From: Salinivirgaceae bacterium
GTDB lineage: Bacteria > Bacteroidota > Bacteroidia > Bacteroidales > SZUA-534
NCBI GenBank assembly: GCA_027858735.1
Contig: JAQICC010000232.1
Location: 1-52,916, forward strand
DNA: 52,916 nt
Direction: 5' to 3'
Shown here: one piece after another, positions 30,583 through 31,320 of the stretch
Layout of the letters: the number at the start of each line of letters is the position of its first letter
Numbering within the stretch: the first letter of the stretch is position 1
Notes under the pieces: model-generated
Told to the model about the DNA's origin: nothing
Seen by the model: only the letters and a program-made list of their open reading frames with translations
Database searches by the model: none
Program-made: the position numbers and the translations under genes

Positions 30583-31320
30583 CTAATTCGCGGTTTTTAT
30601 TTTTGGCAAATTAACCAAATTACTAATTACCTTGATGCTTCTTATAAATGCTAAGAACATAAAGTATACAAAAAATATTTTTGTTTGAATAATACCTAAT
30701 GGTATAAGAAAAAACAAAAGTAAAGTGTGACCATTCATGGTAGCAAAAAAGTTATATAGATTCAGAATAATAACCGACTTTTTAATTTTACTGCCTAAGC
30801 CAACTTTTTTCTCTTCTACATTCCTATTTGATACGCTATTCTGTTCATCAATAACACTTTTTAACTTTTTATAGGCCCCTATATCATGATTTAATATCAT
30901 AGTATATAAAAATACAAATGTTGCAGCTATTGATAGTAGCCAAATTATAAAAGTATTGTAATGAATTCCAGCCCCAATTAACACTATACTTATCTTAAAA
31001 ATATCACTCATATGATCAAAACGAAAAGCCGTTTTATTAATCCTACCTGTCATTCTTGCCACGGTACCATCACAAAAATCAAGATATAAAGATAGGGCCC
31101 AAAATACGGTAAAATAAATATAACTATCGTCAACAATTAAAGCAATAAAAGCCAAAATGGCGAATATAATTGAACCAATAGTAATTACATTGGGTGTAAC
31201 CCTTAACTTTACAAATAATTTTGATAACGGAGATGCTATAATATACAGATATAAGAGCACCACATTGTTTTTTACTATTGCTTCCTTAGCATAATCCTTT
31301 GAAAATAATCCCATGCTCAA
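30583..31320 (-). CDS. CDP-alcohol phosphatidyltransferase family membrane protein
   Basis: Motif DFCDGTVARMTGRINKTAFRFDHMSD = D(x)2DG(x)2AR(x)8[A](x)3D(x)3D with the usual Gly replaced by Ala; multiple TM segments. Confidence 0.87.
   Translation of the reverse strand: MSMGLFSKDYAKEAIVKNNVVLLYLYIIASPLSKLFVKLRVTPNVITIGSIIFAILAFIALIVDDSYIYFTVFWALSLYLDFCDGTVARMTGRINKTAFRFDHMSDIFKISIVLIGAGIHYNTFIIWLLSIAATFVFLYTMILNHDIGAYKKLKSVIDEQNSVSNRNVEEKKVGLGSKIKKSVIILNLYNFFATMNGHTLLLFFLIPLGIIQTKIFFVYFMFLAFIRSIKVISNLVNLPKIKTAN

Follow-up and report, generated by a model that had tools for sequence, protein, structure and literature searches.

A Membrane CDP-Alcohol Phosphotransferase-Family Protein as a Candidate Phosphoramidate Transferase in Glutamine-Kinase Clusters of Several Bacterial Phyla

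The open reading frame (ORF) at 30583–31320 (−) of the window, which is the whole analysed stretch of 52,916 nucleotides from a Salinivirgaceae bacterium, is on balance best read as an integral-membrane CDP-alcohol phosphotransferase (CDP-OH-P enzyme) that uses the nucleotide-activated phosphoramidate of its own cluster as the donor. This reading is based on the sequence, the predicted fold, the intact pathway genes, and the co-occurrence across phyla; from them we infer the identity of the donor, the acceptor, the orientation, and any methyl or other tailoring of the phosphoramidate group. The CDP-OH-P enzyme recurs with phosphoramidate genes in several phyla, and therefore its probable role is to attach the phosphoramidate group to a sugar or lipid of the cell surface.

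Donor Pathway and Glycan Genes in the Window

The O-methyl phosphoramidate pathway of Campylobacter jejuni runs via N-phosphoglutamine to 3'-phospho-CDP-amidate through Cj1415–Cj1418 (PMC6429109). Homologs of these four donor-making enzymes adjoin the gene of the window enzyme.

14031–21123 (+), legionaminic-acid-type nonulosonate genes, possible acceptor sugar (LegC 553, NeuB 478, NeuC 386 bits)
21132–22934 (+), LIC12162-family transferase (TIGR04331, 314 bits; cut-off 225)
24187–26574 (+), L-glutamine kinase, Cj1418-like (NF004508/PRK05849, 894 bits; cut-off 501)
26574–27200 (+), glutamine amidotransferase, gamma-glutamyl-CDP-amidate hydrolase-like, Cj1417-like (NF045546, 100 bits, below the cut-off of 250; Cys-His-Glu motifs present)
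27190–27936 (+), MobA-like cytidylyltransferase, Cj1416-like (PF12804, 56 bits; in 79 of 88 glutamine-kinase loci)
27959–28747 (−), methyltransferase (PF08241; in 7 of 10 CDP-OH-P loci)
28754–29488 (−), formyltransferase-fold protein (PF00551, 47 bits; homologs in 40 of 88 glutamine-kinase loci)
29481–30581 (−), APS-kinase-like 3'-kinase, Cj1415-like, with C-terminal helical domain X (PF01583, 114 bits)
30583–31320 (−), CDP-alcohol phosphotransferase, candidate phosphoramidate transferase (CDP-OH_P_transf, PF01066, 36.7 bits, cut-off 22; fold; co-occurrence)
31003–31080 (−), CDP-OH-P motif DFCDGTVARMTGRINKTAFRFDHMSD, second Gly replaced by Ala
31347–32849 (−), flippase, Polysacc_synt (PF01943, 70.5 bits)

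The key motifs of the donor-making enzymes are intact, and the best NCBIfam model of the amidotransferase is gamma-glutamyl-CDP-amidate hydrolase. The APS-kinase-like gene is the single APS kinase found in the genome, which is 98.9% complete, and therefore it is probably dedicated to the phosphoramidate pathway. The 600-aa protein at 21132–22934 was considered as a Cj1421-like transferase and ruled out; it belongs to the LIC12162 family.

Several further features of the window were observed. In the formyltransferase-fold protein, which is often conserved near the phosphoramidate pathway, the usual catalytic Asn aligns with His (HVHPGWLPKFRGS). Domain X (29481–30056 (−)) is fused behind the APS-kinase-like domain; in other loci it is a separate protein of about 190–250 aa or is fused to the formyltransferase-like protein. 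Searches of domain X against Pfam and the PDB gave no Pfam match and no significant fold match. The ORF at 6990–8540 (−) encodes a response-regulator receiver fused to a PglZ domain.

Motif and Fold of the Window Enzyme

The ORF encodes 245 aa from the listed start, TTG at 31320; the in-frame ATG at 31314 is the likelier start. The motif reads D81-FC-D84-G85-TV-A88-R89-(8 aa)-A98-FRF-D102-HMS-D106. Seven of the eight canonical residues of D..DG..AR........G...D...D are kept: all four Asp, the first Gly, Ala, and Arg. At the second Gly, Ala is seen in four of 35 aligned CDP-OH-P proteins (the window enzyme and those of loci L065, L078, and L080) and Gly in the other 31. The fourth Asp is His or Gly in some of the cluster members, which weighs against the proposed reading. 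The original prediction described this motif with its Gly-to-Ala change, a spacing of 1 nt to the APS-kinase-like gene, and an adjoining flippase gene. The DNA agrees on every point: the motif is encoded exactly so at 31080–31003 (−), a single nucleotide separates the end of the enzyme ORF at 30583 from the start of the APS-kinase-like ORF at 30581, and the flippase ORF ends at 31347. The other loci do not share this adjacency to a flippase.

A profile of the cluster homologs was compared with solved structures. The best matches are IPCT-DIPPS (4mnd, 1.2e-14), AF2299 (1.2e-13), and cholinephosphotransferase (1e-8), with PssA and PgsA well behind. DIPPS and cholinephosphotransferase use small polar CDP-X donors. 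The AlphaFold model of the window enzyme, built with 13 sequences in the alignment, is all-helical with a mean pLDDT of 80.6. Its top PDB match is again AF2299 (E 2.2e-4, probability 1.00, moderate TM of about 0.55), followed by PIP synthases and DIPPS. The window enzyme is thus predicted to have the helical membrane fold of the CDP-alcohol phosphotransferase family, with a moderate fold match. In the NCBIfam comparison, the window enzyme scores 21.5 bits with the pssA model (cut-off 107) and 43 bits with the archaetidylinositol/inositol-phosphate synthase equivalog (cut-off 180).

Phylogeny

The enzymes of the window, L065, L078, L080, and L016 group in a single clade (bootstrap 100, SH-aLRT 98); the other PF01066 proteins encoded in these genomes, PgsA and PssA types included, fall outside it. 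Ala at the second motif Gly is seen in four of these five members, the exception being L016. The remaining cluster enzymes are placed near this clade, not inside it, and a single clade of all ten cluster enzymes is not rejected (p-AU 0.172). Independent recruitment in several lineages was considered on the basis of this separation of the groups; it is not claimed, because one clade of ten is not rejected.

According to the original prediction, placement with PgsA, PssA, or the inositol-phosphate synthases would have spoken against a phosphoramidate transferase. Such placement was not found: the clade is separate and supported, other PF01066 copies are present in the same genomes as the cluster enzymes, and a search of the window's genome for an inositol-1-phosphate synthase (Inos-1-P synthase) found none.

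Occurrence in Glutamine-Kinase Clusters

A search of genome contigs with a glutamine-kinase alignment gave 586 relatives. The best 80 of the 586 were taken, and six loci from the window's phylum and three from Omnitrophota were added, making about 89 glutamine-kinase loci. These 80 are the ones most similar to the window's glutamine kinase, not a random draw, and not all loci are independent by descent. A CDP-OH-P gene is inside the cluster in 10 of the about 89 loci, the window included, in Bacteroidota, Pseudomonadota, and Omnitrophota. The nine besides the window are L016 and L017 (the window's phylum), L065 (Propionivibrio), L078 (Methyloversatilis universalis, gene at 16410–17111), L080 (Denitromonas), and L070, L077, L136, and L137 (Omnitrophota). 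L097 (Woesearchaeota) was left out of the count; its PF01066 gene is on the opposite strand, about 9 kb away. With the window left out, nine loci were observed against 1.1–1.5 expected from the PF01066 gene density in ten genomes; the P values, 3e-6 to 3e-5, are only indicative because the loci are those best matching the window's kinase and are partly related by descent. The CDP-OH-P gene is seen in about 11% of the glutamine-kinase loci, and therefore most organisms use something else.

A typical gene order begins with the glutamine kinase, the 3'-kinase, and the tailoring genes, continues with the methyltransferase, the amidotransferase, and the cytidylyltransferase, and ends with the CDP-OH-P gene. 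The CDP-OH-P gene is directly 3' of the cytidylyltransferase gene in L017, L065, L078, and L080, with a gap of 2–12 nt in the last three, and one gene further in L136 and L137. In L070 and L077 it is directly 3' of the methyltransferase gene.

Other proteins near the glutamine kinase were also noted. L017 (10756–11982), L065 (12902–14119), L070 (14503–15750), and L077 (14303–15559) encode proteins of about 410 aa with no Pfam match, SGNH-like by eye, which occupy the place of domain X and the formyltransferase-like protein in other clusters. The glutamine kinase ORFs of L013, L014, and L016 are 1036–1048 aa long and begin with about 250 additional residues, nucleotidyltransferase-like by eye, which occur in addition to a separate cytidylyltransferase. 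The gene family f7 near the glutamine kinase was set aside as looking spurious, being antisense ORFs in GC-rich genomes.

The converse search, mostly with a profile of the window's clade, covered overlapping genome sets, roughly 1,100 genomes in total. Among 399 genomes of the window's phylum, strong matches are seen only in the window's genome and G276, both of which belong to the seven that contain a glutamine kinase; genomes lacking this kinase gave two weak matches (E 1e-13 to 1e-14). Among 350 genomes of the order of Methyloversatilis, the one strong match is in a glutamine-kinase cluster, and two weak matches have a different motif and adjoin other nucleotidyltransferase-like genes. Both strong matches among 200 genomes of the family of Propionivibrio are in glutamine-kinase clusters. 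In a single-sequence search of 199 genomes of the window's order, the window is the only match. Tblastn against plasmids and a single-protein scan of genome contigs detected no close relative. Strong matches are few and occur only in glutamine-kinase clusters; the window's clade is therefore uncommon and so far always associated with the pathway.

Whether this subfamily co-occurs with the donor-making genes across genomes was a question raised with the original prediction. In several phyla the family is found repeatedly in glutamine-kinase/CDP-amidate clusters, and no member of the window's clade was seen outside them. The idea of a membrane phosphoramidate transferase is thereby supported as a candidate, by the cross-phylum co-occurrence together with the exclusivity of the clade.

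Possible Reaction, Donor and Acceptor

In the CDP-OH-P family, a hydroxyl attacks the beta-phosphorus of CDP-X and CMP is lost. CDP-amidate has NH2 in place of the OR of CDP-choline, and therefore the same reaction would yield an O-phosphoramidate ester. In the proposed pathway, glutamine would be N-phosphorylated, then cytidylylated, and then cleaved to give CDP-amidate, which the APS-kinase-like enzyme may convert to its 3'-phospho form. On the membrane enzyme, an acceptor hydroxyl would attack the beta-phosphorus and displace CMP (or 3'-phospho-CMP), giving RO-PO2-NH2. The acceptor would most likely be a lipid-linked glycan that contains a legionaminic-type sugar and receives the phosphoramidate on the cytosolic face before it is flipped. 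LIC12162-family genes are seen in 5 of 88 loci, all five with a CDP-OH-P enzyme, and NeuB is seen in six of the ten CDP-OH-P loci; these facts favour such a glycan as the acceptor.

The retention of the 3'-kinase in seven of the ten CDP-OH-P loci speaks against this reading, since the donors of known CDP-OH-P enzymes carry no 3'-phosphate. In L136 and L137, no 3'-kinase is nearby, and a (d)CMP kinase gene (L136:12216–12941 and L137:6896–7630; 202 bits, cut-off 136) lies between their cytidylyltransferase and CDP-OH-P genes. This arrangement is expected if CMP is released from CDP-amidate.

Sulfotransferase-fold genes are found in eight other glutamine-kinase loci, all of which have the 3'-kinase: L026:743–2104, L028:6888–9667, L031:15489–16238, L032:13762–15072, L062:11880–12845, L073:16471–17703, L083:12819–14067, and L084:16765–18009. 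These eight are the loci checked with Pfam; the scores of L028 and L083 do not reach its cut-off. It is possible that their products use 3'-phospho-CDP-amidate in a PAPS-like manner. The 3'-kinase is thus present in 7 of 10 CDP-OH-P loci versus 8 of 8 sulfotransferase-fold loci, which suggests that the 3'-phosphate is important for PAPS-like, sulfotransferase-type transfer and less so for the CDP-OH-P type. Two related ideas were dropped. Family f5 is not one sulfotransferase family in 26 loci, as the grouping had also drawn in TPR and other glycan proteins. In the cleaned set, a mutual exclusion of CDP-OH-P and sulfotransferase loci does not reach significance (P 0.28).

Alternative Explanations

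The enzyme might serve the glycan locus with another donor, CDP-diacylglycerol or another CDP-alcohol, and produce a phospholipid-like anchor or a phosphodiester substituent; the adjacency to the phosphoramidate genes would then reflect shared glycan loci. PF01066 proteins are mostly phospholipid synthases overall, and the best NCBIfam models of the window enzyme are the archaetidylinositol and PI phosphate synthases, far below their cut-offs. The wider family is also present in 27 of 148 Omnitrophota genomes, where the members inspected outside glutamine-kinase clusters are mostly among glycan-type genes in genomes without a glutamine kinase; membership alone therefore does not fix the donor. 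Against these points, the window's clade was seen only in glutamine-kinase clusters and is separate from the PgsA/PssA types, its genome lacks a detectable inositol-1-phosphate synthase, and the nearest maker of a CDP-X is the CDP-amidate cytidylyltransferase, often encoded by the adjacent gene. Taken together, another donor appears unlikely.

It seems quite improbable that a separate protein transfers the phosphoramidate and the CDP-OH-P enzyme has a side job or an earlier step. A separate transferase elsewhere was the second finding that, according to the original prediction, would speak against the proposed role. One candidate would be the sulfotransferase-fold protein of the window's genome (Sulfotransfer_1, 90.5 bits; L188:9070–10017 on contig C375), using 3'-phospho-CDP-amidate like PAPS. 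The genome encodes this protein but has the window's kinase as the sole APS kinase found, the eight loci described above combine sulfotransferase-fold genes with the 3'-kinase, and Campylobacter carries out the transfer with other genes, Cj1421/Cj1422 (PMC3907429). The gene on C375, however, has housekeeping genes as neighbours instead of a glycan locus. The searches made of the ten CDP-OH-P loci detected no sulfotransferase-fold gene in any of them, and in L136 and L137 such an enzyme would have no nearby 3'-kinase to supply it. Transfer of phosphoramidate by the CDP-OH-P enzyme itself remains the preferred reading.

Relation to Known Systems and Significance

The archaeal IPCT-DIPPS (4mnd) and AF2299 (4o6m), the best profile and fold matches, have the CDP-OH-P fold and motif in common with the window enzyme. 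The membrane enzyme of IPCT-DIPPS receives its small polar CDP-X donor from a cytidylyltransferase, and the same arrangement is proposed for the window, with CDP-amidate instead of CDP-inositol as the donor. The window enzyme differs from these proteins in the Ala at the second motif Gly and in the cytidylyltransferase being a separate gene. The choline/ethanolamine phosphotransferases CHPT1 and CEPT1, which correspond to the profile match at 1e-8, likewise transfer a small head group, supplied as CDP-X, onto a hydroxyl acceptor in the membrane. Unlike the window enzyme, they are eukaryotic and longer, use CDP-choline or CDP-ethanolamine, and have no link to a glutamine kinase.

To our knowledge, the chemistry of phosphoramidate transfer is unsettled even in Campylobacter. 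In C. jejuni the transfer needs Cj1421/Cj1422 (PMC3907429), whose place the CDP-OH-P enzyme seems to take in the window. PntC systems for tailoring glycans with nucleotidyl-activated phosphonates resemble the window in using a cytidylyltransferase to activate a phosphorus group that ends up on surface glycans; in contrast, their head groups have P-C bonds and the neighbouring transferases are LicD-like or glycosyltransferases (PMC6697681). Our literature search, with subscription journals mostly outside its scope, found no paper linking CDP-alcohol phosphotransferases to phosphoramidate transfer.

Phosphoramidate on glycans was known almost only from Campylobacter according to a review in 2019 (PMC6429109). 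If the proposed reading is correct, a well-understood membrane family performs phosphoramidate transfer in several phyla, known enzymes and substrates allow a direct test of the transfer step, and a P-N head group is added to the donors of the CDP-alcohol phosphotransferases. We give an even chance to the broader view that CDP-OH-P enzymes are a second class of phosphoramidate transferases, using CDP-amidate and membrane acceptors, beside a sulfotransferase-fold class using 3'-phospho-CDP-amidate. In that case, phosphoramidate decoration would occur across several bacterial phyla and would not be a peculiarity of Campylobacter.
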